DNA from: Hankyongella ginsenosidimutans
GTDB taxonomy: Bacteria; Pseudomonadota; Alphaproteobacteria; Sphingomonadales; Sphingomonadaceae
NCBI RefSeq assembly: GCF_005144965.1
Contig: NZ_CP039704.1
Coordinates: 992,001-1,056,000, forward strand
Reading direction: 5' to 3'
Length of the DNA: 64,000 nucleotides
Each line of letters opens with the position of its first letter. Position 1 is the first letter of the stretch. Under the pieces are notes generated by a model that worked only from the letters and a program-made list of their open reading frames with translations, was not told the origin of the DNA and ran no database searches. Both the position numbers and the translations under genes were made by a program. This document shows, in pieces, positions 3,691 to 59,508 of this stretch.

Positions 3691-5380
3691 TTACGACACG
3701 TTTATTGCGCCCTCAAGCGCATCTCGCATGCTGCTAATCTCTTTCGCCGGCTGTGGTTTTCGGTGCTGCGCCGCGAGCCTCTTGGCCGCTGCCTCCGCCA
3801 TGCGGGATGCGCCGGGAACGGAGCCGATAACCTCAACCGTGTTTTCCAGCGGGCCGGCGAACCAGCACCAGCGCGAACTCATCCTGGTCCGGAATCGACG
3901 CGCCATCGATGGTGGCGATCGCGGGCATGCGCCGCAGTACATCGCGCATCCCCTCGATTGTATCGGTGCGGCGATTGCCCATCGCCTGCGCGCGCGCCGT
4001 CCGTTCCGCCTGCACAATGCCTTTTAGGCCGCCCGGAAAATTCTCGATGAAATCGAGGAAGTTTCCAGCACCGACGCCCTCCCGGTGCGCATAGCTGAGC
4101 GACGCGGCGAACTCGGTCAGCCGGGTCTTGTCGTAATCCTCCCCGAACACGAGTTTGGTGATCGGCGTGAAGGGCGCGCGCAATTGCTGTTTGAGGCCAG
4201 CCGCCTCCAGCAGCCGCTGGTATGCGTGCGGCGCAGTCGATGCGGCCAGCGCAAAATCATGCGCCTCGGCGAGCGCCTGGTAGAGCGCCGTGCGCGAGCG
4301 GTGATCCGAGGAGCGGGAAGCGGCGGCTTTCAACTGCGCCAGCTCCAGCTTGCCGACCAGATCCTCGACGCCGTCGTCAACGGTTTCTACATCGTCCGTG
4401 TCTGCGATCTGCGCCCAGGTACCGAGGTCCAGCGTCTCTTCCGCCAAGACCTCTTCGCCGGCAGGGCGCGGCGCGGACAATTCGAGATCATCCTCCAGCC
4501 CCGCCGGCAGTTCGTCCATGGGCACCAAGGGTTCCGGGGTGTCATCCAGACTCGCGTCTTCCGGTTGCGCGGCCTGGTGAGCGGTATCGGCCTCCGCCAG
4601 AAATTCCGCAAGGTCGAGGGGCTCGTCAGCCCCGTCTTCAGCCGGCGTTTCCATCATGGGTGCGTCTTCAGGCGCAAGAGCTTCCGCAGGCTCCTGCCGC
4701 CGCCCCGCGGGGACGCTGAGCAGCAGCGCCTCGATGTCGTCGTCGTCCAGCGACGCCTCCTCAACCGGCGTCGAGAGGTCCAGCACGTCCTCGTCGAGCG
4801 CCCCTGTCAACTCCAGCGCCTCGCTTGCCTCCACGTCCGAGGCGGCGGGTCCTGCCGCCGATGCGCCGTGCAGGAGCGCTTCATCCTTCCAGGATACGAC
4901 CCCGTACATGAAATTGATGGTCTGGCCATCGTCGGAGAGCGGCAGCAGAATGCCGCGGTACTTGGTCAGGACGCCGCGTGGCGACTCGAACTCCGCTTCG
5001 AATCCGACCGGCGCCAGGTTCGCATGAATTTCCAGGTGATGCGCCGTCAGGCGGGAGATCAGCGAACGGGTCGGAATATCGGCCGGGTTGAGGACACCCT
5101 GCTCGATGCCGCTCTCCTCCCGCAGCGACTTGCCGACAAAACGCAGGATCGGCGCTTCCGGGCCTTGGGTGAAATCGAGAAGGATGGACTGATCGCTGAA
5201 AGACTCGACAGCGCGCGGGTCAAGATCGGCAACCGACGGGAACAACCGCCCGTTCAGCAACGATTGCCAGTAAAGATACGCCCGCATGGTCAGGCGGCGT
5301 TCATCCAGCGCCGAAGCCGCGGGGTCCGGAGCCTCATGATCCGAACTGTGCGTATCGACAGGAGACGGCTGATGCATCAC
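3691..5380 (-). CDS. PAS-domain protein with long acidic linker
   Basis: About 560 residues. Residues 30-165 form a PAS-like domain (RAYLYWQSL near the start, then ILRFVGKSLREESG and a YRGILLPLSDDG strand) of the type found in alphaproteobacterial PAS proteins where the domain stands alone. Residues 170-330 are very acidic and low complexity (many E, D, A), probably a disordered linker. The last 200 residues are helical (LYQALAEAHDFALAAS onward). No kinase, GGDEF or other output domain is visible, so its partner is unknown. The frame changes near 3850; the other frame continues naturally with LENTVEVIGSVPGASRMAEA to a stop at 3691. It is read in the same direction as the glutamate dehydrogenase, 88 bases upstream of it. 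ATG 5380 is followed by a second ATG at 5377, so the start is uncertain by one codon. Confidence 0.75.
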
Positions 5381-5420
5381 TGGGTCGCCATCCTTGTTGC
5401 CTGGTCCTGCTCAAGCGCCT

Positions 5421-5472
5421 CTAGACCGTGATCGTTTCAGAGTGAATCGATCCGAAACGTGAATCATGGCCT
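5421..5472. repeat. Intergenic palindrome, family A variant
   Basis: Starts CTAGACCGTGATCGTTT and ends CGTGAATCATGGCCT, so its two ends are inverted copies (ACCRTGAT / ATCATGG). It matches in reverse the element at 12423-12476 over nearly its full length. It lies upstream of the PAS gene. Confidence 0.75.
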
Positions 5473-5483
5473 CATTTATTGCG

Positions 5484-5547
5484 TAGAGCCTGATTCATGC
5501 CATCGGCAGAAGCAATCATGCTTTCCGCCTCAGCCGATCATGCTCTA
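5484..5547. repeat. Intergenic palindrome, family A
   Basis: Begins TAGAGCCTGATTCATGCC and ends CCGATCATGCTCTA. The centre holds the AGAAGCAATCATGCTTT core shared (in reverse) with the copies at 10742, 12352 and 25195. It lies back to back with the variant copy at 5421, in the gap between nhaA and the PAS gene. Confidence 0.75.
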
Positions 5548-5608
5548 AGATCACGGAATTACCGTTAAACTAACGTCTATGGCGCGAAAAGCCTAATCTT
5601 GACCGGGA

Positions 5609-6797
5609 TCAGGTCGCCTTTTGCGCATCCGGGCGCTTCAGCACGGCGTTCAGCACGATGAAACCGGCGATCGCCGAAACAATGGAGCCGCAAAGGATGC
5701 CGATACGCACGGCATCAACATGTGCGCCATCGCGGAACGCCAGGCCGCCAATGAACAGGCTCATCGTGAAGCCTATTCCGCATAGCAACGAAAGACCGAT
5801 CATCTGCGCGAGGGTCACGCCGCTCGGTAATTGCGCCAGGCGCAGCCGCGTCATGAGGAAACTGACCCCCAGGATACCGACGGGCTTGCCGAGGATCAGG
5901 CCAAGTGCGACCGCTTCGGGCAGCGGCCCAGCCACAGCGCCGGATAGCGGCACACCGGCGTTCAGGAACGCGAAAACCGGTACGACCAGGAACGTCACCC
6001 AAGGGTGAATGCCGTGCTCGAGCCGCAAAGGGCGCTGTCGCGCGCACCGCGCTGCTGCAGCGGAATGGTCAGCGCAAGCAGCACGCCAGCCAGCGTCGCA
6101 TGCACGCCGGACCTGTAGGTCGCGTACCATAGCGCCGCCCCGATCAGCAGGTAGGGCCAGACCCGCCCCACCCCAAGCCTGTTCAGGGTCAGCAGCAGCA
6201 TGAACAGCCCGAACGCCCCAGCAGGTACGGCAGCGCCAAAGACTGCGTGTAGAACACGGCAATGATGACGATGGCCCAGGTCGTCGATCACGGCGATGCT
6301 GGTCAGCAGCACTTTGAGGCCGAGTGGAACCCGTTTGCCCAGCGCCATGAGCACCCCGAGCGCAAAGGCGATATCGGTCGCGGCCGGAATGGCCCAGCCA
6401 TGCGCAAGCGTTGCATCCCCTGGATCACGCCGAGGTAGACCGCCGCCGGCGCCGCCATGCCGCCAAGCGCTGCGGTCAGCGGCAACAGCATCTGCCCTTT
6501 GCGGGACAGTTCGCCCTGAAGCATTTCCCGTTTCAGTTCCAGCCCCACCAACAGAAAGAACAGCGCCATCAGCGCGTCGTTGACCCAGTGCTCGACGGAA
6601 AGCGCCAGGCTCAACGGCGGCGCCCCAAGCTCCAGCTTCAGATGGCGCAGGCCTTGATACCATTCGTTGAGCGGCGAATTTGCGACCAGCATGGCGATGA
6701 GCGCCGCGGCGAGCAGCAAATAACTGCCCGCTCCTTCGACCTGAACGAACTGGTTAAAGACCGCTCTGGCCGATGAAAGTGGTTTGGGCGTACGCAT
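5609..6797 (-). CDS. nhaA: Na+/H+ antiporter NhaA
   Basis: Inner-membrane antiporter that expels Na+ or Li+ in exchange for protons, for pH and salt homeostasis. The first 130 residues contain [19 protein letters not shown] (first membrane helix), then [20 protein letters not shown] and [11 protein letters not shown], all typical of NhaA. The C-terminal part has [13 protein letters not shown] and [20 protein letters not shown]. The length of about 395 residues fits the family. The frame changes near 6400, 6250 and 6020; the helices on each side still align in order, so indel error is the likely cause. It has no co-directional neighbour close by and appears monocistronic. The leader from 6798 upward is long and contains structured sequence (see 6962-7026). 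Confidence 0.92.
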
Positions 6798-10987: not shown

Positions 10988-11162
10988 TAGGGTCAGGACT
11001 CATTAAGAATGAGGCTGTGGCGCTGGCGATTTTGGCGCGCAGGCAGGCGCGAGGGAGGCGAATATTGAACATATTCAACGACCGAGTAACAAACCTGCAC
11101 GCCAAAGCGCCGCGTCCTGCGGATGGCGGCACGATCCTCGTCGTTAATGGGTCCTGACCCTA
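10988..11162. mobile_element. MITE-like element, short copy (175 bp)
   Basis: Ends are TAGGGTCAGGACTCATTAA and GTTAATGGGTCCTGACCCTA, near-perfect terminal inverted repeats bounded by TA. It carries no open frame of note. It is the same element as 25347-25613 apart from point changes and the loss of about 90 central bases. The TA boundaries would suit mobilisation by an IS630/mariner-type transposase, which is inference since no transposase is in the window. Its right end supplies the TAG stop codon of the neighbouring methyltransferase gene. Confidence 0.8.
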
Positions 11163-12341
11163 ATCCAGCGCGTATGCTATGAACTTCAGGTAGGCCGTCT
11201 GCGGCAAAAACGGGTGCACCGGATGGTCCGGCCCGGCGCCGGCGGTATGGATGCGCCGCCCGGCACGCCCGGCGGCGCGCAGGCCCTGCACGGTTGCTTC
11301 GGCGAAGGCCTCGGGGAGCACGTTGTGGCTGCACGATGCCAGGCACAGGAAGCCGCCTTCCGCCACCCGGTCAGCGGCAAGCCGTGCCAGCTTCTCGTAA
11401 CCTTTCAGCGCCGCCGGCACATCCTTGCGGGATTTTGCGAACGCGGGCGGATCGGCGATGACCACATCGAACCGCCGGGTCTCCTGCTCCAGATAGGCGA
11501 ACCCCTCGGACGTTACAGTCTCGAGGCAATCGTTCAGACCGCTGAGGTCAGCCGCCGTCCGCACCAGGTCGAGCGCCGGGGCGGACCGGTCGACCAGAGT
11601 CACCCGCGCCGCGCCGGCCTTTGCAGCAGCCAGGCCGAACCCGCCAGCGTAGCAATAGGCATCAGGACGGATGCGCCTCGACTGAGCCGCGCGGCGAAGG
11701 CGCGGTTGTCGCGGTGGTCGTAGAACCAGCCGGTCTTCTGCCCGCCCAGGGGTCGATGGCGAAGCGGCACCCGTTCTCCTCGATGACCAAGGGCACCGGC
11801 AGCGCCATGCCGTGCAGCGCGGACAGCGGCTCCAGCCCCTCGCTGGCGCGCGCGGGGCCGTCGCTGGCGACGACGATCGAACGCGGCGCCATCAGGGCCT
11901 CCAGCGCCGCCCGAATATCCGGCAGCGCAGCGGTCATGCCGGCGGTGTTGGGCTGCACGACGAGGACATCGCCATGGCGATCGATCACCAGCCCGGGCAG
12001 GCTGTCCCTTCGGCGTGACAGAGCCGGTAATACGGTGCCTCAAACAGCCGGTCGCGCAGGCGCAGCGCGCGCGCCAACCGCTCTTCGAAATAACCGGCGT
12101 CGATCGTGCGATCGGTATTGCGGGTGAGCAGCCGCGCGGCGATCAGGCTGTGCGGGTTGAAGTGATACAGGCCGAGCAGGCGACCGTTCGGTTCCGCAAG
12201 GCGCACCACGCTGCCGGGCACGATCCGGCGCGCCTCCGCGTTCATCTGCAATTGGTTCGCATAAACCCAAGGGCGGCCGCGCACCGCTGCGGGCTTCACC
12301 GCGCTGTCGAGTACGAGTTTTGGTGTTTGGTCATTTTTCAT
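11160..12341 (-). CDS. rlmI: Class I rRNA methyltransferase, RlmI-like (PUA plus SAM domain)
   Basis: Predicted 23S rRNA cytosine-C5 methyltransferase. The first 80 residues are a PUA domain (GRPWVYANQLQ, PGSVVRLAEPNGRLLGLYHFNP). The linker has YYRLCHAEGTACPG and QKTGWFYDHRDNR, and the SAM domain shows RFDVVIADPPAFAKS, with the DPPAF active motif, and CLASCSHN. All are typical of the roughly 390-residue RlmI family. ATG 12341 starts MKNDQTPKLVL; an upstream ATG at 12380 would fall inside a repeat and is rejected. The frame changes near 11990, 11735 and 11615. The stop codon TAG (11160-11162) is made by the end of the MITE-like element inserted there. Exact target specificity cannot be told, so the symbol is by family. 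Confidence 0.85.
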
Positions 12342-12351
12342 AGTCAGGCCA

Positions 12352-12411
12352 TAGAGCCTGATCGACTGAGGTTGAAGCATGATTGCTGCAACCGATGCCG
12401 TGAACAGGCTC
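12352..12411. repeat. Intergenic palindrome, family A
   Basis: TAGAGCCTGATCGACTGAGG, then core TTGAAGCATGATTGCTGCAA, then CCGTGAACAGGCTC. It is 10 bases upstream of the rlmI-like start codon, so it is part of that gene's promoter or leader region. Confidence 0.78.
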
Positions 12412-12549: not shown

Positions 12550-14290
12550 ATGGGCGCATGGTTTATCTGTCGCAGTGGCGAACCGGCTGCGACATCCGCC
12601 AAGCTGGCGGCTGCGCGTGCCCAGTTCCGCCGTCACGGCCTGCCGGAGCCGGTGGATTTCGCAACGCCGACCCACCAGGGCTTCTTCAGCGGCCCGGTGC
12701 ACGCCGGGCTGCCGACCCATGTGCAGCGCGGCGGGGATTTCGTCGCGGTGGCGGGCACGCTGTTCTACAAAGGCCAGGGCGGCGAGGCGGCGCTGTTGCA
12801 GCTTCTGGACGATTTCACCTTTCCGTTCGAGCGCTGGAGCGACTGCATCGGCCAGTTCGCGCTGCTGGTTTGCAAAGACGGCGTGCTTCATGTCGCGACG
12901 GACTATTTTGCCGCCTTCCAGGTCTTCCACGATGCCGCGCGCGACATCGTCTCCACGTCGATGCTGGCGACCGTGGCCTGCCTGCCGCGGGTGCGCTTCT
13001 CGCCTCAGGGGTCTACGAGTTCGTGTTCAGCGCCTTTCCGATGGGCGACGAGACGGTATTCGAGGAGGTGAAGCGCCTTGGGCCGCACGAGCAGCTGCGC
13101 CTGGGGACCAGGTCAGCTTCGCCGCGACGCCCAAACACCTGCCGGATGCCTTTGACGACCGCCCGATCGAGTCAATGGTGCGCGAGCATGCGGACCGGGT
13201 GCTTGCGCTCGCCGGGGTCGCCGTCAAGCTCTACGGCGACAATATCCAGTGCCCACTGTCTGCCGGCTACGACTCCCGGATGGCGCTGGCGGCGTTGCGG
13301 GCACAGGGTCCAAACCCTATGTCTATGTCTACGGCTCCCGGGTGATCCGGACGTCGAGCTGGCCTGCGCCATCGGCAAGGGAGAAGGGTTCGCGGTCAAC
13401 CTGTTCCAGAAAAGCAGCTGGAAGATGATCACGCCCGCGGAATTTCCGGCTGTCGTCGCCGAGAATTTCGAGGAAACCGACGGTCTGGTGACCGACGGCG
13501 GCCTGTTCGACAACGGCGGCAACCGCCGCGCCAGGCTGGACCGGCAGGCCGGCGGCGCGCTGGCTGTCTCCGGCGGCTGCGGCGAAGTGTTCCGCAACTT
13601 CTTCTACCTGCCGGACGGCCGCTACACGACGCGGGACATCCTCTATGCGTTCTTCTCGCAGTTCGATGCGGCGGACTGCACAAGCGAGTTCGATCCGCAC
13701 CGCTACTACATGATCCTGTCAGCAAAGCTGAAAGCCGCGATCAGGACCACCAACGATACGCTGACCCGCCAGCAGGTGGAGAAAATATACCCGGCCTTTC
13801 GGTGCCGGCCGTTCTTCGGGCGGGAGATCAGCCTCGTTGGCCGTCACGGCGCCTATTTCATGCCGTTCCTCGAGACCGATCTGGTGCGAGCGGCCTTGCA
13901 AATTCCCCTGCGCTACAAGACGTTCGGGCAATTCCAGGCCAGATTGATTGCCGCCATCGACCCAAAACTCGCACGTTACATGTCAAGCTACGGCCATAGT
14001 TTCGATCAGCCGCCGGGGTGGAACATCGCCTGTCGGAGCTGAGCGGCATGGTGCGGCCACCCTGGATGCGTCGCCTCAGCCACCCTCTGAAGAACCGCCT
14101 GAATCTGACCACGGACGATCACGGCGGCCTGCTGTCCCCGGAATTCCTCGGTCGGGTCATCGACCTGAGCTATCCGGCCATGCGGCGCTATTTCCGCATG
14201 GATCGGCTGCGCGATCCAGGCATGCGGCGGCGGATCGCCAATCTCGAGTATCTTGCGACCTGGCTGGGCGCCAAACTGGCTACCCCTTGA
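12550..14290 (+). CDS. Asparagine-synthase-like ATP-pyrophosphatase protein lacking the amidotransferase cysteine
   Basis: About 575 residues. The N-terminal third looks like a class II glutamine amidotransferase fold (GDFVAVAGTLFYKG, DDFTFPFERWSDCIGQFALL), but it begins MGAWFICRSG and so lacks the Cys that must be residue 2. The second part carries an ATP-binding PP-loop, LSAGYDSRMALAALRAQG, in place of SGGxDS, and then asparagine-synthase-type helices. It may therefore amidate or adenylate an unknown acceptor with ammonia rather than glutamine, or act as a non-amidating synthetase-like protein. ATG 12550 is preceded by GGGAG. The frame changes near 13010, 13110, 13300-13345 and 14020; the sequence continues to TGA 14288. 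It is convergent with the histidine kinase, seven bases away. No operon partner is present. Confidence 0.72.
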
Positions 14291-14296
14291 GGCGCG

Positions 14297-15924
14297 CTAG
14301 ACCCCGACAAGTGCCGATCGCTTGTCGGGGTCAGACCGGCGGCCCTTGATCGAGGCGTCGAACGCTTCATTGATCGCCTCGACGATCTTGGCAACGATGA
14401 TCGGTTTCGAGAGATAGCGGAAGAAACCCGCGCTCAACCCACGCTCGATATGATGCGGCATCGCATTGGCGCTGAGCGCCAGAACCGGGGTCAGGGCGAA
14501 TTCCGGATCGCGCTTGATCTGCTGCAGAAGCGCGAAGCCGTTCTGGTCCGGTAGATTGATATCCAGAAGTACGACATCGGGCTTCTCGTTGCGCAGCGCT
14601 TCCAGCCCGCTCCGGCCGTCGTTCGCCTCGATCAGCGTGACGTTCTTGATGGTGGTGCAGATCGCACTGATGAGCTGGCGGTTCATGTAGTTGTCTTCGA
14701 CATAGAGCAGCTTGAAGTTCCGCGCCGCCACTTGAAACTCGGTTTCCTGCACGGTGTCCGCCTCTTCCTTATTGGGTTGATAGATCGGGAGTTCTACCCA
14801 GAATGTAGAACCCACGCCCTCCGTGCTGGTATAACCCAGTGACCCTCCCATAAGTTCCGCCAATTGCCGTGTCAGCGCCAAGCCTACGCCAGTCCCCTCT
14901 ATGGCCTTTTGCTCCGCACCCAGACGATTGAACGGTTGAAACAATTCCGATTGCCGATCCGCAGGTATACCGATGCCGGTATCGGTAACGCTGATCCGTA
15001 CCTTGTGCCCGGCAAGGACCTTGATTGAAAACAACACCGTGCCGTTCGGTCGATTATACTTGATGGCATTCGATCCAAGATTATAAAGGCATTGCGAAAT
15101 TCTGGTGGCATCGGCAAGTACGAGTGGAATATCATCATGGCATTCCGCAACATCGATCCCGATACCATATTGCAATGCCAGATGCGTTAGTGATGTATAC
15201 ACTGACTTTACGACATTAACGACGTCAACTTGTTCTACAGAAACCGTGAGTTTTCCGGTTTCTATTTTACTTAACTCCAGGACTTCATTGATAAGGCTGA
15301 GCAGATGGTTGCCACTGCTCAACAAGGACTGCACAAATTCTTTCTGTTCAGCATTCAGAGGACCGAAAAACTCCCCATCGAGAAGCTGGCCGAACCCGAG
15401 GATGCCGTTCATGGGCGTCCGCAGTTCATGGCTCATGATGGTCAGAAATTCCGACTTTGCCCGGTTGGCGCGTTCCGCCTCCTCCTTGGCATCGCGCAAC
15501 GCCTGCTCCGCTGCAAGGCGCGGCCGCAAATCGAAGAGTGTGGCGACAATCACGGAGCCGTCCTTGGTCTGGGAGCGGCGCAACTGGATATCGAGCGGAA
15601 TCATTTCCCTAATTTGTTCCGCCCGCTGACCTCACGCCCCGCGCCCATGGTGCGCGTGGTGTCATTGACGAGGTTGGCGGAGCTTCTGTAGCGCACATGA
15701 TCGCCGCGGAATTGCTCCGGCACCAGCAGCTCGACCAGCTGCCCGGTCAGCTCCTCTACCGTATAGCCGAAGAGCCGCTCGACGCTGCTGTTGGCGTAAA
15801 CGATCCTCCCCGACGTATCGACCGCCAGCAAACCATGGGCCGTCGCTTCGCCAAGCGTATCGAATGCAGCGACATAGCGGCTCTCACAGTGGCGAACGTC
15901 CTGCGCTGGGTTCTCGTCGGTCAC
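14297..15924 (-). CDS. PAS hybrid sensor histidine kinase with receiver domain
   Basis: Residues 20-115 form a PAS domain (HGLLAVDTSGRIVYANSSVE, LFGYTVEELTGQ). A HisKA domain follows with the phosphorylated His in SHELRTPMNGILGFGQLL, then an HATPase domain with NLGSNAIKY, DTGIGIPADRQ and GTGVGLALTRQL. A C-terminal receiver domain has the acceptor Asp in VVLLDINLPDQNG and the Lys in YLSKPII. There is no membrane segment, so it is a soluble sensor and phosphorelay protein. The frame changes once near 15610; reading GRNK then GEMIPLDIQLRR restores the PAS C-cap. The start is ATG 15924. The last codons and the TAG stop run into a strong hairpin at 14300-14332. No response regulator or phosphotransfer partner lies nearby. 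Confidence 0.92.
14300..14332. terminator. Strong hairpin between convergent genes
   Basis: GACCCCGACAAG (14300-14311) pairs perfectly with CTTGTCGGGGTC (14321-14332) over a 9-base loop. It stands between the asparagine-synthase-like gene and the histidine kinase and can fold in both transcripts. The arms also encode the last residues of the kinase. No T-run follows, so intrinsic termination is likely but not certain. Confidence 0.6.
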
Positions 15925-48003: not shown

Positions 48004-49125
48004 ATGGCAAAACCTGAAAGAAGCCAGAAACGCTTGCTGTACGTCGTTAGTCCGGCAAAATTCTTTGTGACTCATCGCTTGCCCTTAGCCTTGGCGGCAC
48101 GATCCCATGGATTTGAGGTTGCTGTATGCACGCCAGACGGCCCTGGTGTCGATGCGATTCAGCAGCATGGCCTCACATGGATGGACCTGAAGATGGATCG
48201 CGGCGGCATGAACCCACTACGTGACATGATGACGCTGGCTCGGTTATGCCGACTCTACAGGTATTGGCAGCCCGACATTGTCCATCATGTCACCCTCAAG
48301 CCGGTACTCTATGGTACTGTAGCTGCCCGAATGGCCCGTGTGAACAGGGTGGTGAACGCCATTTCCGGTATGGGTTATCTTTTACGGGCGGAGGTTGGAA
48401 GGCTGGACTGGCAACCGCCTTGTATCGACTATGTCTTCGCCATCGCGACATGGCCGTTATCGTCCAAAATCCTGATGACAAACATTTTTTCTACAGCGAC
48501 AACTGGTCCAGCCCGATAGCCTGCAGCTGATCACGGGGTCTGGGGTTGATCTGGAGAGATTTACGCCGAAACAGAGATCTGACGAAGATACCGCTCGTCC
48601 TATGGTCGTGCAGACCTGCCGGATGCTGGCGGATAAGGGTGTGCGGGAGTTTATCGCGGCTGCACGTCAGCTGCGCAGCAGCCATCCCGAGGCACGATTC
48701 GTCCTTGTCGGCGCGCCGGACCCGGGAATCCCACCGCCATCCCGATTGAAGAACTCGAGACGGCTGTACGTCAAGGTGATGTCGAGTGGTGGGGCGAGCG
48801 TTCCGACATTCCCGAAATTCTGGCCCGCGCCACAGTCTATGTCCTGGCATCCTATCGCGAGGGCTTGTCCAAAGCGCTTATCGAGGCGGCCGCCGCGGGC
48901 CTGCCGCTCGTGACGACAGACACCACAGGCTGCCGCGACGTCGTGCGCGATGGCGAAAACGGCCTGCTCGTCCCACCGCGCGATGCTGGTGCTCTGGCAG
49001 TTGCCATTGCACGCCTGCTCGATGATCCAGAACTTCGGGAGCGACTTGGCAAAGCGGCCCGAGCCGACGCTGAAGCCCGCTATGGAATTGACGGCATTAT
49101 CGCCGCTCAGCTCGCGCTATACTGA
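48004..49125 (+). CDS. Glycosyltransferase, GT4 family
   Basis: About 372 residues, with two Rossmann-type lobes. N-terminal: RLLYVVSPAKFFVTHRLPLA, DIVHHVTLKPVLYGTVAARM and AISGMGYLL. C-terminal: MVVQTCRMLADKGVREFIAA and the nucleotide-sugar EX7E-type motif in ASYREGLSKALIEAAAAGLP, then GENGLLVPPRDA. The frame changes near 48385, 48500-48520 and 48730. It resembles GT4 enzymes of bacterial polysaccharide clusters that add a second sugar; donor and acceptor are unknown. Its 3' end overlaps the convergent asnB by 19 bases. Confidence 0.82.
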
Positions 49126-51044
49126 GCATCCCACCAAGCCTGAAACATCAGGACATCCCATAAGTGATTGTGCCAGCGTCGGCGGCCCTGTTGGTGTTCC
49201 TGCCAGTAGCGCGTGATGATATCAGGCTCGAAAATGCCCTGCGCCTTTATGCGCCGGGGATCGAGCAAGTCTTCCGCCCAATGCTTCAGCGGGCCCTTCA
49301 GCCAGGCTTCAACGGGTACGCCAAAGCCCATTTTCGGGCGATCAACAATGGATTGCGGGACATGCCGATAAAGCAGCCTACGCAGCGGCAGCTTGCCCGT
49401 GTTGCCGTTTATCTTTGCATCGAGCTGCATCTGCCAGGCGAACTCGGCCACACGATGATCCAGAAACGGCACCCGAGCTTCCAGGCTGACGGCCATACTG
49501 GCGCGGTCCACTTTCACCAGTATGTCATCCGGCAGATACGTGAGGGTATCCATCGCCATCATCCGGTGCGCGAAATCGAGCTGCGGAAAAGGCGTGCTGG
49601 CGATCAGCGTTCCCGGTTCGCGCCCGCCAATCACAAGCTGTTCCGGCTGTGACCAGTGCGACACCAACTGGCGATACAGCGCATCATCCGTATCTGCCTC
49701 AAGCAGGCTTGCCAGCTTGGGCAGCCTGTCTGCGACCGCGGCCTGCCGGACGCGTGCCGGCAGCAGGGTATTGACTGCCCCAAGCACGGTTCCGAGCTGC
49801 GGGCTCTGCATGGCGCGCGCCAGCATCCGGCGCAGACCCGACGGCAGTTTTCCAATATTGCGACGCAACCATACCGCCTGAAAATAACGATTATAGCCGC
49901 CGAAGATTTCATCCCCGCATCGCCGGAAAGGCTGACCGTCACATGCGCCTTGGTCAGCTTGCTCAGCAGCAGGGTCGGGATTTGCGACGAGTCCGCGAAC
50001 GGCTCATCCCAAATGTGCGGTAGTTGCGGCACCACATCCAGCGCATCGCGGGGCTGGACATAAAGCTCTGTATGATCCGTGCCCAGATGGCGCGCAACCG
50101 CTTTGCCGTGTTCCGCCTCATTGTAGGCTTTTTCATGAAAACCCATGGAGAAGGTCTTCACAGGCGATGCAGATTGCGCCTGCATCAGTGCTACGATCAG
50201 CGAGGAGTCTATGCCGCCGGACAGAAAAGCGCCCGTTGGCACATCGGAGTCCATGCGGCGCAGCACGGCATCCTTGAGCAGCGATTCAAGTTCATCCAGC
50301 ATTGCAGGCGTATCAGCACGTGCGCTGTATTGTCCGCGCAGTGCGGCCTCTTCAAAGCTCCAGTAACATTTCAAAATCCGGGAACCGGTCCCGCTCAGCG
50401 TCAGATAGTGAGCCTGCGGCAGCTTGCTGATATTCTTCCAGATACTATGCGGTGTCGGCACGTAATTATGACGCAGGAAAAGGCAAAGCGCATCGCGGTC
50501 CAGTTCGCGGCGCACATGTGGATGCGCGTTCAATGCCTTGAGTTCCGACCCGAACACAAAGCCACCCTCGACCCAGCCATAATAGAGCGGCTTTTCGCCG
50601 AAGCGATCACGCGCCAGAGTCAGGGCACGCTCTTTGCGGTCCCACAGCGCCAGCGCAAACATGCCGTTGCTGCGCCTCAGGGTCTCTTCAAGCCCCCAGA
50701 AACTTATGCCGGCCAGCAGCACTTCGGTATCGGAATGGCCGCGCCAGTCCGGTGCGGTGCCCGCAGACACGAGCTCGGCGCGCAGATCCCTGTGATTGTA
50801 GATCTCGCCGTTGTAGACCAGCACATAACGGCCATCCGCTGACTCCATGGGCTGACGCCCGGCTGGCGACAAATCAGGATGGACAACCGGCGATGGCCGA
50901 GCGCCACGCCGGCCTCATCATCAATCAATGCTGCGCATCATCCGGCCCGCGATGCGCGATGGCTTGCGTCATGCGATTGATCGTTGGCTGCAAATCCAGC
51001 TTGCTGGCCCGTCCATTAAAGAGAAATCCGGCTATGCCGCACAT
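49107..51044 (-). CDS. asnB: Asparagine synthase, glutamine-hydrolysing (polysaccharide-locus type)
   Basis: About 640 residues. MCGIAGFLFNGRA gives the catalytic Cys at position 2; RRLSI, then NGEIYNHRDLRAEL and GMFALALWDRKERALTLARD complete the class II amidotransferase. The synthase domain has the PP-loop FLSGGIDSSLIVALMQA and VSLSGDAG. Unlike the protein at 12550, this one keeps every key residue. In polysaccharide clusters such AsnB-type enzymes may amidate uronic acids rather than make asparagine; this is inference. The frame changes near 50920, 50865 and 49900. It lies 10 bases downstream of the methyltransferase. Confidence 0.9.
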
Positions 51045-51054
51045 ATTGATACTT

Positions 51055-51890
51055 TCATTCAGCAGCGCCCGCTTTTATGCCAACGGCGCACCAGTACGGT
51101 GCATGTGCGCTGAATTTAACCTGTTCAAGACCAGCATCGCGCATCATTTTTCGATTTCCTGGCGCGTAAAGCGCTGCTCCAGCCGGGTGCCGAAACGATC
51201 CAGTGCATCCGTGCGCATTACATAGAATGATTTCGCACGATAGTAGGACAGAGGCAGGCCTTCTGCAGGAAAACCCATTTTTCTACAAGGCGGGCCATCC
51301 GCGCCAGCGGCCAATAAACCAAAACCGCAATCCCCTGGCTCATGACGTAGCGCGGTCCATGGGGCAGTCGTGATATCACGGCCCGGCCAAGCTCCGAGGC
51401 TTGCCATAGCGCTCGGAACCACCAGGGCCCATCAAAGCGATAGTAGAGGTAAAGCAGAAATGGTGCGCCGGGCTTTAGCTTGGCAACGCAGGATACAAGA
51501 CCAGCGGCCGTGTCTGGCATATGATGGAGCACGCCCAGAGAATACCCAAAATCAAGGCTGTTACCCCTGATTTCTGGCATATCTCCAATGCTGCTGAGCA
51601 GGAACTCACAATTCGAGTAAGCGGCGAGGTTTCGGCGCGCCACCGCAAGGGCCGCCTCGCTGGCATCCACGCAGACGAGCCTGGAAATACGCCCCGCAAC
51701 CACCGACGCCCATCGGCCACTGCCGCATCCAAAATCTGCGCCGCATGCGTCTGCTGGCAATTCATTCCAGGGAAAATCTCAAAATATTCATTAAATATTT
51801 TTTCTTCTCGTCATCAGATAAAATTGACTGATCAAATCTGGTCCATTCATCACCGAAACCCGCGGTAACATCATAGTCAACATTAGACAT
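51055..51890 (-). CDS. Class I SAM-dependent methyltransferase
   Basis: About 278 residues. The start MSNVDYDVTAGFGDEWTRFD is common in methyltransferases of surface-polysaccharide clusters. Motif I: ADFGCGSGRWASVVAGRI; then LVCVDASEAALAVARRNL, LGVLHHMPDTAAGLVSCVAK and LKPGAPFLLYLYYRFDG. After a frame change near 51245 it continues GLPLSYYRAKSFYVMRTDAL and ends AVGIKAGAAE. Another frame change lies near 51765. It sits upstream of asnB with a gap of 10 bases, so the two are one operon. The methylated substrate is unknown. Confidence 0.83.
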
Positions 51891-52049
51891 ATGTGATTGT
51901 CTTTCTTGTATCGCCGATATCATAATTTTAGAGATACACCCTGTACGCCATTGACTTGTGCAAGCCGCATACCGCAATGGTTATGCCAATTGCAACGCTT
52001 GATAACCAGGGCTTTGGCACATAGAAGCGCACATTCGCTGCATCATTCA

Positions 52050-53158
52050 TGACGGAAATCCTGTTTGCCCGCCCCGCTTAATGTTCTTTTGTTGTTCGCC
52101 ACCTCTGCAATAGGTGGCGCCGAGCGCAGCCTGACGCGCATGGCGCTGTGCAGACCGAATGGGCCGGTGCATTATACCCTGGCGACGTTGGGAGAAGAAG
52201 GCGACTGGACACAATGGGCCCGCAGCCAAGGCGCAGACGCGATCGCCCTTGCCGGATCACCTGCAGCACCACGTCACAAGGTGCGGGCGCTCGTCGATTT
52301 ATGGCGACAACTCAAGCCGGACTTTATCTACGTCATGGGCCTGCGCCCCGCGACACTCGTTCGGGCGCTGCGACCTTTCATGCCGAGGACAAGAATTGTC
52401 CATGGCATCCGCGGTAATGTGGAACCAGGAACTCCCCTTGGGCGCGATTACAGACGCGTTGAGTGGCCGCAGCGATTTCTCACCGATCATTACATTACAA
52501 ATGCGGAAGTCACAAAACGCAGTCTTGCTCGCCTGATCTCGGTATCGCCGTTACGCATCGACGTTGTATACAATGGTATTGAAGCACCCGAAGGGCCGCC
52601 GATAGCCTGGCCTGAACGCGCGCGCGAAATTGTCAGTGTTGCAAACCTTTTACCGGTCAAGGGGCATATCCGTTTCTCGAGGCAATCAAGCAAGTCGTGA
52701 CAGAATTGCCGGAGACAAGATTCCGTTTCATCGGCCGCGATGACATGAATGGAGCAGTCGCCAGGGCCGTACAGGAAGCCGGGCTTGAACAGCATGTGAT
52801 CCTGCACGGCTATGATCGTCATCCGGAGCAGTGGGTGGCACAAGCACAGATGCTCGCAATGCATTCACTTTGGGGAGGGCTGCCCGACTGCAATTTTGGA
52901 GGCAATGTCATATGGTACACCCGTCGTTTCATATGCAACTGGCGGCATTCCTGAGATTGTAGATCATGGTCGGGATGGATTGCTGGTGCCACCAAAGGAT
53001 ACCGTAGAAATGGCGGCAGCGATTCTGCGCTTGTTGCGTGACCGGAAACGGCTGCATCCTACGGACTAGCAGGCCGCGCCAAAGTACTTGAGCGTTTCAC
53101 TCTCGCCGCAACGGCTGATGCGCATATGGAGATATTTAGCAAACTGGCCGCAAGATAG
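52050..53158 (+). CDS. Glycosyltransferase, GT4 family
   Basis: About 370 residues. N-terminal lobe: NVLLLFATSAIGGAERSLTR, YVMGLRPATLVRALRPF and VHGIRGNV. C-terminal lobe: IVSVANLLPVKGH, FRFIGRDDMNGAVARAV, then EAMSYGTPVVSYATGGIPEI and DGLLVPPKDTVEM, the GT4 donor site. ATG 52050 (MTEILFARPA) needs a frame change at about 52078; TTG 52065 is an alternative start. Further changes lie near 52670, 52895 and 53060. It reads away from the methyltransferase at 51890 across a 160-base gap. Confidence 0.82.
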
Positions 53159-53260
53159 AATTGATCTCAATTCCATTCAATTTGACATTGCTATAATTTT
53201 ACAAGGCAGACGCGAATTATTGCGCAGACCAAATTATTAAAAATTTAGGAATAAGTATAT

Positions 53261-54574
53261 TTATTTCTCTCCTGTATCGGCACTCAATTTTATACAATAC
53301 AGAATTTTTACCATGAAAATTGCTAGTATCATAAAACTATTATACCACCGAATGATCTTATTATTCCTATAAGATTGGCCATAAGATATATAAGTACAGC
53401 CATATATCCCTTCTGACTTTTGGATTTTTCATAGATTAGACGTAGCAACAACCCAAACAAGAAGGGGAAAATAAAAACGCCGACCGGGCCATAGTTGATA
53501 TAACCTTCACCCAAAAACCTATTGGATAGGTCGCGTTCAGTCCTGCGTAATCAAATAAACCAGGCAGTACATCGTTCTGGGCACGAAGCGTTCCATATAT
53601 CTCGGGTTTGAATGGGAAAAGCGAACGAGGCATGTAGGTTAGAACTACATCTTCGATCGGGGTGAGTCCAAAGTAGAAATTGTCACATCGGTATAAACAG
53701 GACGATAGCATTTCAAACTGGTCGAACGACTGGGTAAAACGCACAAAACTTAACCAAAGTATATTCGAAAAATTGAGTAATTGGTTTCAAATGCAAAGGA
53801 CACAAGAATCAGCCCAAGAATGCCCCGGTAGTAACAACGGATATCAGGATGATGATTTGATATAAAACTTGTATGTTTCTTACGTTATAATGATAAAACA
53901 ATATCACGATCATTAGCAGTGACAACAGAACTTGTCTTGATCCGATTATTCCAAAAATTAAGGCGACTAAAATAAATATTAATGTTAAAAAATTTTGTTT
54001 AAAGCGTGGGCTTCGCTGTTCACGTATGAAAGCATTAGAATAGTCAAAATTAGAGGTAATTGCAACAATAAAAATAAATATTGACCTTGGCCAGACCATG
54101 ATTTCAATATGTTTATTCTTAAATCTGACGAAAATAGTTGGATCGCGGAGCCAGAAGACAGTACATCTGGAAGTAATTTAGAAAACATAGCAACTGATAC
54201 TATTACAAGAATAAATGAAACATATCTGGCATTCTTATCACTACGAAAACTCAATTCCGGTAATATCATGTAGTCGGAAAGTTGTGCTCCAGCCAAGTAT
54301 CCAAAAATAAGCCCAAAAATACCTAAAAAGATAGACATAATGTTGCATAGAATAAAGATATATTATCTATAGGGTAATAATTATCAAAAACTGAAAAATC
54401 ATTTGGATAAAAGTATGTCAAAAAGCCGCGAATGGGATAGGCAAAAATAAAGCCGCATGATATAAATATGAGTGGCGACAAGAAACTGCGTTCATGAAAT
54501 TTATCTTCAAGCACGCCGGCGAGGATTATTAATAATACGATTGATACCCCAAGAGTTGTAAATACAGCAATCAT
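53261..54574 (-). CDS. Wzy-like polysaccharide polymerase
   Basis: About 435 residues, a multi-helix membrane protein. Hydrophobic segments: FTTLGVSIVLLIILAGVL, FLSPLIFISCGFIFAYPI, GIFGLIFGYLAG, YVSFILVIVSVAMF, LQLPLILTILML and GVFIFPFLFGLLLRLIYE. The polar loop with RSLFPFKPEIYG and GEGYINYGPVGVF resembles O-antigen polymerases. It is very A+T-rich for this genome. The frame changes near 54330, 53990, 53800, 53510 and 53320; allowing the last, it ends with KILYCIKLSADTGEK at 53261. It lies next to wzz, as expected for a Wzx/Wzy system. Wzy sequences are too variable for a certain call. Confidence 0.72.
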
Positions 54575-54583
54575 AGACTTAAC

Positions 54584-55470
54584 TTACTTGACATTATCGC
54601 GCACGACTATAAATATAGATGCAAGTATTATCCCTGATATGAAGCCTAGTAAACATATTAAAGCGCGTTGAGGGCTTGCTTTGTTATAAGGTATTGTCGC
54701 AACATCAATTATTTTAAATGCATAGCTTGTCGTACCGGACGTCAATGCCAATGTTCTTGCCTCTTGTGCTAAAAGTGTTGCCAGCGCGCCGCGTACTTCC
54801 GGTAATTGTTGTGCACCAATCCTTTGAGTTAATAAGTCCAGACGGCGACGTGATTCTAATACCGCATCAGTGCGTATTATTTCATCAGCATAATGAATAT
54901 ACTGGTTGCATATCTGTGTAGCCAATTCTGGCCGATTCAGTACAATTTCTATAGTGTAAACACCGCCGTCGACTGAAGGACTAAAGAGTAAATTTTCACG
55001 CTTAAATTTGTCAACCGCCTTCTCTATGCTCTTACTGGTGTCTAAATTTTTACCTGTTGTCGATAAAGTTTTATTTTCTTTACCTCCATTCTCATCTGTC
55101 ATATTTATATAGTCTACAAGCCTATTTTTAATTAAAACCCTCGAATCATTGTTCGAGACTTGAGTCTCTGAAAATTCAGATCAAAATTGGATTGATCGCT
55201 ACCAGACAAGCCAGCCAAACGCCCCAACGTACCAAGAATCTGCGGAGAAGTAGAAAGTTGTTGGGAAAATGGCGGTGGTACTAGTGCGAAAGTAGCCTTC
55301 GCCCTATATTTTACTGGCAATGCAACACTCAAAAATATGGCAAATAAAGTGCAAAGTATCGTAATTGTTATAAAACTAATGTAGCGCTTACGGACAGAAT
55401 TTATGAAACCAAATAGCGTAACAGCTTGAGATTTATCGTCGTTCTTAGGCTTATCCATTGATCGCATCAC
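54584..55470 (-). CDS. Wzz-type polysaccharide chain-length regulator
   Basis: About 290 residues. N-terminal membrane helix ISFITITILCTLFAIFLSVA with LPVKYRAKATFALVPPP after it; a periplasmic coiled region (RRRLDLLTQRIGAQQLPEVR); and a C-terminal helix (QRALICLLGFISGIILASIF) preceded by P-rich VATIPYNKASP, the Wzz signature. It sets polymer length together with Wzy. The frame changes once near 55130. The base composition is A+T-rich, like wzy next to it. Confidence 0.83.
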
Positions 55471-55606
55471 TCTGTAATTCTTCCTGACAATTTGTGCATA
55501 TATACGTTTTATACGCTAGTTTAATTTATTCTTTACGTAGTAATGCACGTGGCAGCCTAAATTTCACCTTATTCATGAAAACTCTGTAAGCTATAATAAC
55601 CGACTT

Positions 55607-56353
55607 TCAGTATCTGGCGTACCAGCCCGGCCGGGCGAAAGCAACGCCAGTTCTCGCGCAAAATACGGGCATGGCCGCGGGCCAGCAATCGCGCTCGGGC
55701 AGAAAAACCTTGGGCGCACTCAGCCGGTCGTCGCCACGCGTTTCGTAGCGACGCGCCTCCACTGGCGACACCAACATGGGACCATGACGGGCGAGAAGCC
55801 GAAGATAGGCAAGCCCTTCAAAGCCACGCAGGTCGGCATCATAAGGAGAGGCGACAAAGGCGTCCCGACGCAGGACAGGCAGGCATTCGCCGTAGGGCCA
55901 GTCGCCGAGATATGTCTCTCGGTCCACCAAGATGTCCTGCGCCTGCGCGGAACCTAGCAATGCGCCGCTAGCCTGATCGACACAGCGGAACATGATGATT
56001 GCCATATCCTTGTAGGCGCGAAGTGTGGCCGCGACAGGGCCCGCTGCGGTGGGGATCAAAAGATCGTCCGAGTCCAGAAAGACGATCCAGTGACCGCTTG
56101 CGGCCATGGCTCCAGCGTTCTTGGCGCCGGTAACACCCTGATTGCAGGGCAGCGCAACCACCTTGAGATATGAACGCGCGAGCTCATCCGCATAGCGCGA
56201 TCTAAGCTGTGCGAGCGTGTCGTCCGTCGAGGCATCGTCGACGACAATGACTTCACAGTCCCCGAGCGCCTGCGCCCAGACAAGCGCACTGTCGATAGCG
56301 TCAAAAACGCACCTGAGACGATTATAGGTCGGGATGACAATAGATATCTGCAC
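55607..56353 (-). CDS. Glycosyltransferase, GT2 family
   Basis: About 248 residues, GT-A fold: QISIVIPTYNRLRCVFDAID, CEVIVVDDASTDDTLAQLR, KNAGAMAASGHWIVFLDSDD, the DXD metal motif in LDSDD. Later ECLPVLRRDAFVASPYDADL and GFEGLAYLRLLARHGPMLVS. GTG 56353 is a likely start (VQISIVI). The frame is open from the preceding DUF268 gene, so a hidden indel may have removed the stop between the two, or they are translated as a fusion. Confidence 0.82.
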   Translation of the reverse strand: MQISIVIPTYNRLRCVFDAIDSALVWAQALGDCEVIVVDDASTDDTLAQLRSRYADELARSYLKVVALPCNQGVTGAKNAGAMAASGHWIVFLDSDDLLIPTAAGPVAATLRAYKDMAIIMFRCVDQASGALLGSAQAQDILVDRETYLGDWPYGECLPVLRRDAFVASPYDADLRGFEGLAYLRLLARHGPMLVSPVEARRYETRGDDRLSAPKVFLPERDCWPAAMPVFCARTGVAFARPGWYARY

Positions 56354-57253: not shown

Positions 57254-58728
57254 ATGGCGCAAGCCTTTTCCGGCATATTGATGTCTACCGTCGCAAGCCG
57301 CCTCGTGCCGGCGGCGCTGAGTCTTCTCACCATTCCGCTCTACACGCGCCTCATCGGCCTTGAGAGCTACGGGATCATCGGATTTTATGCCTCTTTGCAC
57401 TCGTTGATGACCCTGTTGGACTTCGGCCTTGGCGTAACCGTCAGCCGCCGCCTGATCTTCGATCGCGCGCAAGGCAAAGGACCGAGGAAAGCCGATCCTT
57501 CTGCTCTGCCATCGAAACTTTCTATCTCGTTATTGTAATGCTGATCGTCCTGGCCTTCGGCGGTATGGCGCTTGCCGCGCTACATGGCATGGCACCAGCG
57601 GAACAGCAGGGGCTTACAGCCCAGATCTGGCTGATGATCGGCTTCCTGCTTGCGTGTCGTTTTCCCATGGCCCTTTACAACGCCATTCTGACTGGCAGCG
57701 ATCGCATGATCGAGGCCAATGCCATCACCGTCGGCTTCGACCTTTTACGCCATTCATGCGCCGCACTTGCGCTGCTGTTGATCAGCAGCAGCGTGGAAAT
57801 GTTTTTGCTGAGCAACATGCTGGCCGCTGTCCTGGCCCTTGTGCCACTACGCTGGCTGTGCCGGACAGTACTTGGCTTGCCGTTCCGAGCGCATGGCGGG
57901 CTTGCCACGGTGCGGAGAGCGCTGCCATTTGCCGCAGGGATGTCTCTCATCAGCCTGTCTTGGTTTTGCTTGGCTACCTCGACAAGATATTGCTGATCGG
58001 TATGATGTCGCCGTCAGTTTATTCAAGCTACACGCTCAGCTATCAGGTTTCAGGCGCCATGCTGATGCTCGCTACCATCGTCACCCAATCGCTTTATCCA
58101 AAGATCAACAGGCTCGTTGCCGAGAATGATCAGGCCGGCATTTCCAATTTGGCAGGGCTTGCCACGTCCGCCATTACCGTTTTGCTGTAACCGCCTTCTG
58201 GATCACATGGATGTTTGAGGAGCAAATCGCCCGGATAATTGTCTCATCTGATCAGCGCAGCAGTTTTCAATCTTCGATACTCATTGCCTTCATGGCCGGC
58301 ATGGCGTTCGCGGCAGTCTGGCAGGTTCCATACCAACTTGGCGTTGCACGTGGCTTACTTCGTCCTATTCTGATCTGTAATTGCGTCGCGATACCCGTGT
58401 TTATAACGGCAGTTTTATTCTTTGGAATGCACGATGACGGCGTATCTATTGCAATAGTTTGGATGTTTATATATGTGTTTTACACAATTTTACTTGGAAG
58501 TTGGCTGATTAAACGCATAACTGTGAATTTTTAACTTGGCTAAACCGCGCTATTTTTATACCTGCCGCCGCAATATCGCTGCTTGCAGGCCTTTTCATTT
58601 TTTCAGCGCCATATGCTTGTTCAGTTACAGCCGCTGTATGCCTTGCTTCTTGCGGCATTATTTTCGTTAGTGTTTGGTTTAATCGGTATATATTTATCCC
58701 CGCACTTGAAATCAATGATAATTCATGA
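57254..58728 (+). CDS. Wzx-type oligosaccharide flippase
   Basis: About 480 residues; a multi-helix membrane protein moving lipid-linked repeat units across the inner membrane. Segments: FSGILMSTVASRLVPAALSL, IPLYTRLIGLESYGIIGFYA and LLDFGLGVTVSRRL (typical of the polysaccharide-transport family), IGFLLACRFPMALYNAILTG, PFAAGMSLISLSW, IGMMSPSVYSSYTLSYQVSG, and AFMAGMAFAAVWQVPYQLGV. The frame changes near 57480, 57960 and 58190. A further one is likely at the T-run near 58531: with one extra T it reads ITVNFLTWLNRAIFIPAAA and runs to TGA at 58726. Confidence 0.83.
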
Positions 58729-58854
58729 AAGCCTTGGCAGGATGCATCATCGGCTTGGCACAGAAAGGTAGAATGTATATTGGCTCAGGCGGATACGCCA
58801 TTTGATTTAACATAACATTCTTAATGGCATCATATTTGCTAGACTACTCAAACC

Positions 58855-59508
58855 ATGAGCATAGAAAGATTTAGCGACATGTTTAGTCCTGAAAGTAAAT
58901 ATTACATTCGCAGCATGCCAGGCGGAAAATTATACGTTCAGGCCATGGCGTGGCTTGAAATGAAACGGTGGGAACTTTCTAAAAGGAGCGGGGCATATCC
59001 CGCTATGAAAAAGCGCATGATGATCTCTGACTTAATCCGAAAAAATTTTATACAATGGTTTGTAGAAACAGGCACATTTCTTGGCGACACAACTTATGTA
59101 GCGTCTAAGATTTGCAAGCGAGTAGATACCATAGAAGTGTCTGAGCGCCTGCATACCCTTGCTGAGAAGCGCTTCTCATCTATGCCACATGTTCATTGTC
59201 ATTTGGGAGATAGTGGTGATGTATTAGGAAAAATTACACTTGTGCAGACGGAACCTGCCTTATTTTGGCTAGATGGGCATTTTTCCGGTGGATTCACCGC
59301 GCGCGGAGCAGAGGATACACCAGTTTTCAGAGAACTTCTTCATATTTCAGCACGTAACCAGCCTAAAGATATCATTTTGATTGATGATGCACGATGCTTT
59401 GGAACTGATCCGGCTTATCCAAGCGAGGCAGATTTAATGCGTTTTGCAGGTGGATTAGGGTACCAGATAACCAGATCTGGCGACACATTCCTCCTCACTA
59501 AGCCATGA
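58855..59508 (+). CDS. Methyltransferase-like protein of polysaccharide locus
   Basis: 217 residues in one intact frame. The middle has FIQWFVETGTFLGDTTYVAS, an SAM-type nucleotide loop, then VDTIEVSERLHTLAEKRF and ALFWLDGHFSGGFT with DIILIDDARCFG. This pattern resembles class I methyltransferases seen in capsule clusters, but the reaction is unknown. The codon use is A+T-rich, unlike the gene after it, suggesting recent transfer. Its TGA overlaps the ATG of the next gene (ATGA). Confidence 0.7.
   Translation: MSIERFSDMFSPESKYYIRSMPGGKLYVQAMAWLEMKRWELSKRSGAYPAMKKRMMISDLIRKNFIQWFVETGTFLGDTTYVASKICKRVDTIEVSERLHTLAEKRFSSMPHVHCHLGDSGDVLGKITLVQTEPALFWLDGHFSGGFTARGAEDTPVFRELLHISARNQPKDIILIDDARCFGTDPAYPSEADLMRFAGGLGYQITRSGDTFLLTKP

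Follow-up and report, generated by a model that had tools for sequence, protein, structure and literature searches.

In E. coli asparagine synthetase B (AsnB, 1CT9), the NGE motif is the oxyanion/glutamine triplet. Beta-lactam synthetase and CarA (1JGT, 1Q15) have a non-functional N-lobe and carry a catalytic Tyr/Glu pair and a catalytic Lys. To our knowledge, the exosortase-A/PEP-CTERM polysaccharide system combines many genes with little solved chemistry. The closest match to the family described here, the hydroxyamidotransferase TsnB9 (7YLZ), is reported to take a hydroxylamine unit from glutamyl hydroxamate and attach it to a carboxylate; a homologue needs ATP for this (PMC13418202). The AsnB fold is reported to make hydroxamates (PMC13418202) and nitriles (PMC13060819). 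The gene analysed here is a member of a widespread family with the AsnB fold for which Pfam and NCBIfam offer no specific model, and no paper on it was present among the matches listed for the open-access literature. The family adds a Cys-less branch to a fold known for lactams, lasso rings, hydroxamates and nitriles.

The window, a stretch of 64,000 nucleotides from Hankyongella ginsenosidimutans (contig NZ_CP039704.1, positions 992,001 to 1,056,000), carries one member of this family. An earlier note had read 12550-14290 as a single gene for a stand-alone AsnB-like protein that starts MGAWF, lacks the catalytic Cys2 and has LSAGYDS as its PP-loop. Both motifs are in the DNA: translation from an ATG at 12550 gives MGAWFICRSG, and the LSAGYDSR codons begin at 13256, in another frame. 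The single reading frame did not hold up, as the frame-1 ORF from 12550 runs for only 173 aa before a stop. Matching to relatives instead divides the gene into six pieces joined by five frame changes, which together encode 582 aa in a family whose proteins are about 570-585 aa long. None of the six pieces contains an internal stop codon, and coding ends at 14287. Each of the five frame changes was computed to have the sense of one missing base. The features of the locus are:

11160..12380, minus strand: upstream divergent neighbour, methyltransferase-like with a PUA_3 domain (over cut-off), split over several ORFs
12550..13011, plus strand, frame 1: piece 1, N-lobe with a predicted Ntn-hydrolase-like fold; MGAWF start, without Cys2, and AGT at the position of AsnB NGE (from alignments)
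13011..13109, plus strand, frame 3: piece 2, end of the N-lobe, VYEFVFSAFPMGDETVFEEVKRLGPHEQLRLGT
13103..13309, plus strand, frame 2: piece 3, start of the synthetase domain and PP-loop LSAGYDSR
13256..13279, plus strand: PP-loop codons, with a private GCC (Ala) where the family has Gly
13309..13338, plus strand, frame 1: piece 4, the ten residues SKPYVYVYGS, with the family motif VYVYG
13341..14015, plus strand, frame 3: piece 5, bulk of the synthetase domain, with GGCGEVFRNFFYLP
14015..14287, plus strand, frame 2: piece 6, C-terminal end, followed by the stop at 14288-14290
14297..15604, minus strand: downstream convergent neighbour, a histidine kinase with a receiver domain

The upstream neighbour, which we take to be RlmI-like, matches the MTS model at 21.4 bits, below its cut-off of 23. 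Neither the methyltransferase-like nor the histidine kinase flank occurs among the recurrent neighbours of relatives at the 80 loci described below.

Clear relatives were found by genome search in 14 of 59 related genomes, the window genome included; the weak hits in G001 and G003 and a second hit in G046 were left out of the family. An alignment scan of named genomes yielded 187 relatives, the best 80 of which were used. These 80 were retrieved with patterns that partly select for the SGG motif and were chosen partly by hand. A further 13 relatives from the related genomes were retrieved without a motif pattern; 7 of them are also among the 80, giving 86 distinct relatives. Scanning genome contigs with the single window composite gave no match. 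In a phylum sample, 10 of 398 genomes, again including the window genome, scored above 300 bits: nine at 565 bits or more and the fragmented window copy at 310.8 (best piece). The next genome scored 110, and hits at or below that score, including G327, were left out. Members among the best 80 come from Sphingomonas, Sphingosinicella, Pacificimonas, Parasphingopyxis, Emcibacter, Kordiimonadaceae, Magnetococcales, Roseomonas, Belnapia, Caenispirillum, Neptunomonas and Chromatiales, among others; the family spans Alpha- and Gammaproteobacteria and Magnetococcales. A plasmid or phage origin was rejected, as tblastn of the relative L008 at E 1e-5 found no match among 72,556 plasmid records and none among 50,697 phage records.

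The absence of Cys2 is real and family-wide. Among the 74 named relatives with an automatically visible start (80 minus six), none has Cys at position 2, which is instead G in 39, A in 25, S in 7, R in 2 and T in 1; nor does any of them have a Cys anywhere in its first six residues. In four of the remaining six, an in-frame Met is present, and the residue after it is G (L062), S (L098), A (L100) or G (L103). Six further distinct relatives also lack Cys2, which makes 80 distinct relatives with a start and none with Cys2. The earlier note had allowed that close homologues might keep MC and that the loss here might be an indel or a wrong start; the 74 and 6 relatives without Cys2 rule out both causes. 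In a pair alignment with AsnB, the NGE triplet falls on A-G-T, and these columns lack Asn at the first place and Glu at the third in all 86 distinct relatives. Because Cys2 and the Asn and Glu of NGE are all absent, the glutaminase is, on sequence grounds, lost as a family trait, and glutamine use by the family is very unlikely.

The fold evidence comes from a model of L008, which is 53% identical to the window protein; the window protein itself is known by sequence alone. The AlphaFold model (pLDDT 91.4, pTM 0.92) has the two-lobe architecture of the AsnB superfamily, a predicted Ntn-like lobe followed by a predicted PP-loop synthetase lobe. It aligns best with TsnB9 (7ylz; Z 23.1, rmsd 3.6, 501 aligned), then with E. 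coli AsnB (1ct9; Z 20.5, rmsd 3.9, 428 aligned), CarA (1q15; Z 19.1, rmsd 4.0, 412 aligned) and beta-lactam synthetase (1jgt; Z 18.9, rmsd 4.3, 422 aligned), and the first match outside the AsnB group appears at Z 10.2. The AsnB-like assignment made from the letters is therefore borne out over the full length of the modelled relative, as an AsnB/beta-lactam-synthetase fold. Profile models barely register it. Against Pfam PF00733 Asn_synthase (cut-off 21 bits), 10 of 11 members fall below and only L018 passes, at 22.1; the window composite had no Pfam hit. Scored one by one, the same number of members reached at best 27.6 bits on TIGR01536 (cut-off 267.1), and the family lies far below every NCBIfam cut-off. 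A macrolactam cyclase NCBIfam model matches 4 of 13 members, at best with E 1.3e-7 and 30.6 bits against a cut-off of 300.

Each described system resembles the family in part. E. coli AsnB shares the full-length two-lobe fold and the SGGxDS PP-loop, but the family lacks its Cys2, NGE, aligned catalytic Lys and SGEG/D loop, and L008 is only 12% identical to it in the structural alignment. Beta-lactam synthetase and CarA, like the family, have the AsnB fold without the glutaminase nucleophile; they differ in that their catalytic Tyr/Glu and Lys seem unaligned in the family (by profile alignment with AsnB) and in that no natural-product cluster was seen at the family's loci. TsnB9 is the best match in sequence (E 0.00087) as well as in structure, but it belongs to Streptomyces hydroxamate clusters rather than to glycan loci. 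The XrtA/PEP-CTERM amidotransferases of TIGR03108 (eps_aminotran_1; the WbpS/WbqG group) share both the AsnB fold and the kind of locus. AsnB proteins that match this model are separate genes, neighbouring the family gene in several genomes, and the AsnB neighbours in L060, L062, L068 and L096 start MCGI, unlike the family. TIGR03108 itself hit only 1 of 13 family members, at E 0.016, below the model cut-off and in a protein without Cys2.

In the synthetase lobe, the PP-loop reads SGGxDSR in 83 of the 86 distinct relatives and SGGxDTR in 3. SGG is found in all 80 named relatives, whose retrieval partly selected the motif, and in all 13 found without a motif pattern. SAGYDS is private to the window among the 86, and the idea that homologues conserve it is rejected. 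Residues S236, G237, G238, D240, R242, G344, R348 and R420 (L028 numbering) are invariant in all 86, and K287, E345 and R422 are kept in 85, D310 in 84 and K459 in 83. A profile alignment to E. coli AsnB (probability 99.1) places Ala in 66 relatives, Gly in 13, Ser in 7 and Lys in none at the column that we take to be the AsnB catalytic Lys, a mapping that is uncertain; a pair alignment with one AsnB sequence has its gaps elsewhere and places the Lys region otherwise. The AsnB loop SGEGSDEVF becomes SG-GCGEVF, in which the Glu falls on a gap and the Asp is Gly in 86 of 86; the following Glu is kept in 85. The catalytic Lys and acidic residues of AsnB thus do not seem to be kept, and AsnB-type adenylation may have been lost in the family, because these columns are not matched in the alignment. 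The pattern of conserved charged residues fits an active site that works but has been rebuilt, and the residues kept across 86 relatives argue for an active enzyme.

Neighbours were counted within five genes on simple gene calls at 80 loci, some of them on short contigs. A GT4 gene is present at 38 loci, an O-ligase-family gene at 29 and either at 48. A gene of GT4, O-ligase, AsnB or XrtA type lies within this distance at 50 of the 80. Sphingomonas loci often have the order GT4 / O-ligase / family gene. At L041, the GT4 passes the 442-bit cut-off of the PEP-CTERM/XrtA glycosyltransferase model TIGR04063 with 607 bits; the ligase, at 183.7 bits, falls short of the 188.1 set for TIGR03097. The GT4 next to the gene at L028 reaches none of the cut-offs listed; its best score, 134 against 409, is on TIGR03088. 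We scanned 122 neighbours of the more distant loci, namely 121 of 194 recorded neighbours plus the L060 AsnB, which was added by hand. At E 1e-10, and not always over cut-off, TIGR03088 and TIGR04063 matched 9 each (related models overlap), TIGR03108 matched 8, TIGR03097 7, TIGR03101 4 and TIGR03100 3; TIGR03108, TIGR03101 and TIGR03100 are models of the XrtA system. Where the recurrent neighbours at the 80 loci were annotated, they have glycan or housekeeping functions; precursor-peptide and natural-product families were not conspicuous among them, and on this ground a biosynthetic-cluster product was rejected.

Fifteen of the loci lie beside the ATP synthase operon, adjoining atpH (delta), with priA within two genes in 12 (L064, L065, L066, L069, L072, L076, L077, L079, L083, L085, L087, L089, L090, L091 and L093); several are from Emcibacter or Kordiimonadaceae. 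Another 15 of the 80 have none of the markers. The earlier note had placed the gene outside any cluster, which is correct for the window genome and for the 15 ATP-synthase loci but does not describe the family, given the 50 loci near a GT4, O-ligase, AsnB or XrtA-type gene.

Genomes with the family tend also to carry the exosortase-A-associated O-glycosylation ligase, TIGR03097. This model is over its cut-off in 13 of 14 family-positive genomes and 20 of 45 other relatives (Fisher p 0.001), and in the phylum sample in 8 of 10 family-positive genomes and 52 of 388 others (Fisher p 6e-6), values that ignore relatedness and so overstate independence. Seven of the 10 phylum positives come from two families, one of which also has ligase-bearing members without the gene. 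The two phylum positives that do not pass for TIGR03097 are G082, which misses the cut-off at 183.2 bits, and G194, which has no match. For the more distant loci, TIGR03097 is over its cut-off in 38 of 46 genomes (Fisher 5e-22 vs the 388, with the same overstatement), a count that covers 46 of the 80 loci (L028-L059, L061 and L063 left out) and includes 8 genomes that are also in the two earlier sets, with identical match places. Even the solitary ATP-synthase loci come from genomes with the ligase in 11 of 15 cases. Many genomes have the ligase and no family gene (the 20 of 45 and 52 of 388 above), and therefore the ligase does not need the gene. The family is linked to the TIGR03097 ligase by co-occurrence and proximity, and the link runs one way. 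The exosortase XrtA is a weaker companion than TIGR03097 and not a dependable partner: it is over cut-off in 11 of 14 family-positive genomes and 26 of 45 other relatives (p 0.14). In the phylum sample, XrtA passes its cut-off in 3 of 10 family-positive genomes and 32 of 388 others; at E 0.001 the counts are 5 of 10 and 75 of 388 (p 0.03). XrtA as an obligate partner is not supported by these counts.

The window genome has the same components, dispersed. Its TIGR03097 ligase lies with WecB-like and GT4 genes at 104.9-106.1 kb of the contig, and XrtA with an AsnB that resembles the relatives' AsnB neighbours at 436.5-439.9 kb. The window gene is at 1004.6-1006.3 kb, about 0.9 Mb from the ligase and GT4. 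Within the 64-kb window, and the gene itself aside, glycan-type matches to the relatives' neighbour proteins fall solely in an asnB/GT4 stretch at 48.7-53.0 kb. The asnB there, which the earlier note had named as the normal counterpart with MCGIAGF, is present, with its start at 51044 (minus strand); the Asn_synthase and GATase_7 models both hit it, and it too is split into frames. GT4-like stretches at 48745-49122 and 52290-53024 flank it. Because it is set between them, this asnB (48745-53024 stretch) may itself be a glycan-locus amidotransferase. The odd PP-loop and the isolation of the window gene are local to this genome; the loss of Cys2 is family-wide.

What might such a protein do? Because the family keeps company with a particular surface-sugar assembly system, its enzyme probably builds a bond on a polysaccharide of the cell surface instead of making asparagine. 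The reading we favour, at about an even chance of being right, is that an AsnB-fold enzyme with a dead glutaminase uses ATP to modify either an extracellular glycan or the precursor of one. The synthetase lobe would bind ATP at SGGxDSR, and a carboxylate on a glycan, sugar nucleotide or small acyl donor would be activated. An amine other than glutamine-derived ammonia would then attack to give an amide or similar bond, and the product would feed an extracellular polysaccharide/O-glycosylation pathway whose last step is the Wzy_C-family ligase of TIGR03097. We infer three of these points: that the protein works as a catalyst, that a carboxylate is what it activates and that a glycan is its substrate. 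Work on the exopolysaccharide of a freshwater Sphingomonas reports an exosortase-associated amidotransferase among the insertion hits for colony morphology (PMC11340318). The tie between the family and the O-ligase across Alphaproteobacteria, Gammaproteobacteria and Magnetococcales offers a testable handle on what attaches to what.

An AsnB without its glutaminase could instead be an ammonia-dependent amidating synthetase that converts a sugar carboxylate to an amide. The AsnB-type PesC is reported to take ammonia in place of glutamine, like canonical asparagine synthetases (PMC13060819), and WbpS-type eps_aminotran_1 proteins are described as making uronamides for cell-surface linking sugars (PMC7468200). 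The AsnB acidic and Lys positions are unaligned in the family, however, and the second AsnB, beside XrtA in the window genome, could do the amidation; we hold this option to be possible but doubtful. The apparent loss by alignment of the catalytic Lys and two acidic residues, together with the missing Cys2, would also suit a catalytically dead AsnB relative that serves the polysaccharide machinery as an ATP-sensing or scaffold subunit, and the window copy departs even from the PP-loop Gly. Yet 86 relatives show little or no variation in the PP-loop and in many charged residues, which is more conservation than a scaffold would need, and we think such a role unlikely. Ring closure or internal amine joining in a small metabolite or peptide, in the manner of beta-lactam synthetase, CarA or lasso cyclases and with no role on surface glycans, would account for the shared two-lobe architecture (Z 18.5-19.1 to both synthetases) and for the weak macrolactam cyclase match. 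Its difficulty lies in the neighbours, where annotated recurrent genes are of glycan or housekeeping type and precursor-peptide and natural-product families are not prominent, and we consider it quite improbable.

Within the favoured reading of a glycan-modifying enzyme, a narrower version can be drawn. Cargo of the T9SS carries an aminoacylated, amidated linking sugar. The family could be a dedicated, glutaminase-dead AsnB-fold ligase of the TIGR03097/XrtA system, with a rebuilt site that lacks the usual Lys. It would couple a carboxylated linking sugar through an amide to an amino acid or an amino sugar, letting the O-ligase (or exosortase, where present) join the glycan to protein or lipid as a Proteobacterial counterpart of the T9SS linking sugar. 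We offer this version as a long shot. If it is true that the reaction links glycan and protein, the importance of the family rises.

The window copy raises a separate question, whether it is a pseudogene. Its genome is a single contig of 2.88 Mb, 86.66% complete and 6.5% contaminated. Four other split genes in it, XrtA, the TIGR03097 ligase, the XrtA-linked AsnB and the window asnB, were checked and also have the one-missing-base sense, for nine of nine frame-change cases (five in the window gene plus four genes). Because all nine share this sense, the assembly, which seems to drop bases, is the probable source of the indels, and the frame breaks therefore say little about the window gene. The PP-loop Ala codon, GCC, is one base off Gly GGC, so SAGYDS may be an assembly error as well. 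At 54 highly conserved sites, the window protein departs at 3, vs 0-2 for its 34 nearest relatives; three or more departures occur in 11 of the 80 relatives, none of them among those 34. The five frame changes, the SAGYDS loop and the three departures speak for decay of this one copy. Set against them are the missing-base sense that all five changes share with four other genes of the assembly, the six pieces free of internal stops, and the 11 relatives with as many departures. We judge it unlikely that the window copy is a pseudogene.

Several minor observations accompany these results. Reading this assembly by ORFs misleads, as frame changes run through several genes. A family of about 337-aa proteins lies near the gene at seven loci (L071 at 5321-6331, L062, L078, L082, L104, L105 and L106); its L071 representative had no Pfam match at E 0.001 and no NCBIfam match at E 1e-8. 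At five loci, a second AsnB-like protein near the family gene also starts without Cys2 (MSGFCGW, MTGN or MNVLFG, on simple gene calls) and keeps SGGLDSST: L106:6143-7996, L092:16363-18273, L098:5656-7551, L099:5702-7594 and L080:5-1150. Those of L106 and L098 score 306 and 303 bits on TIGR03108 (cut-off 816.9). In the window, G+C falls to 0.42-0.47 at 52001-56000 and 58001-60000, vs 0.52-0.70 in the other 2-kb steps; these low-G+C stretches lie between tRNA-Ala (45584) and tRNA-Leu (62618) and may mark an island.
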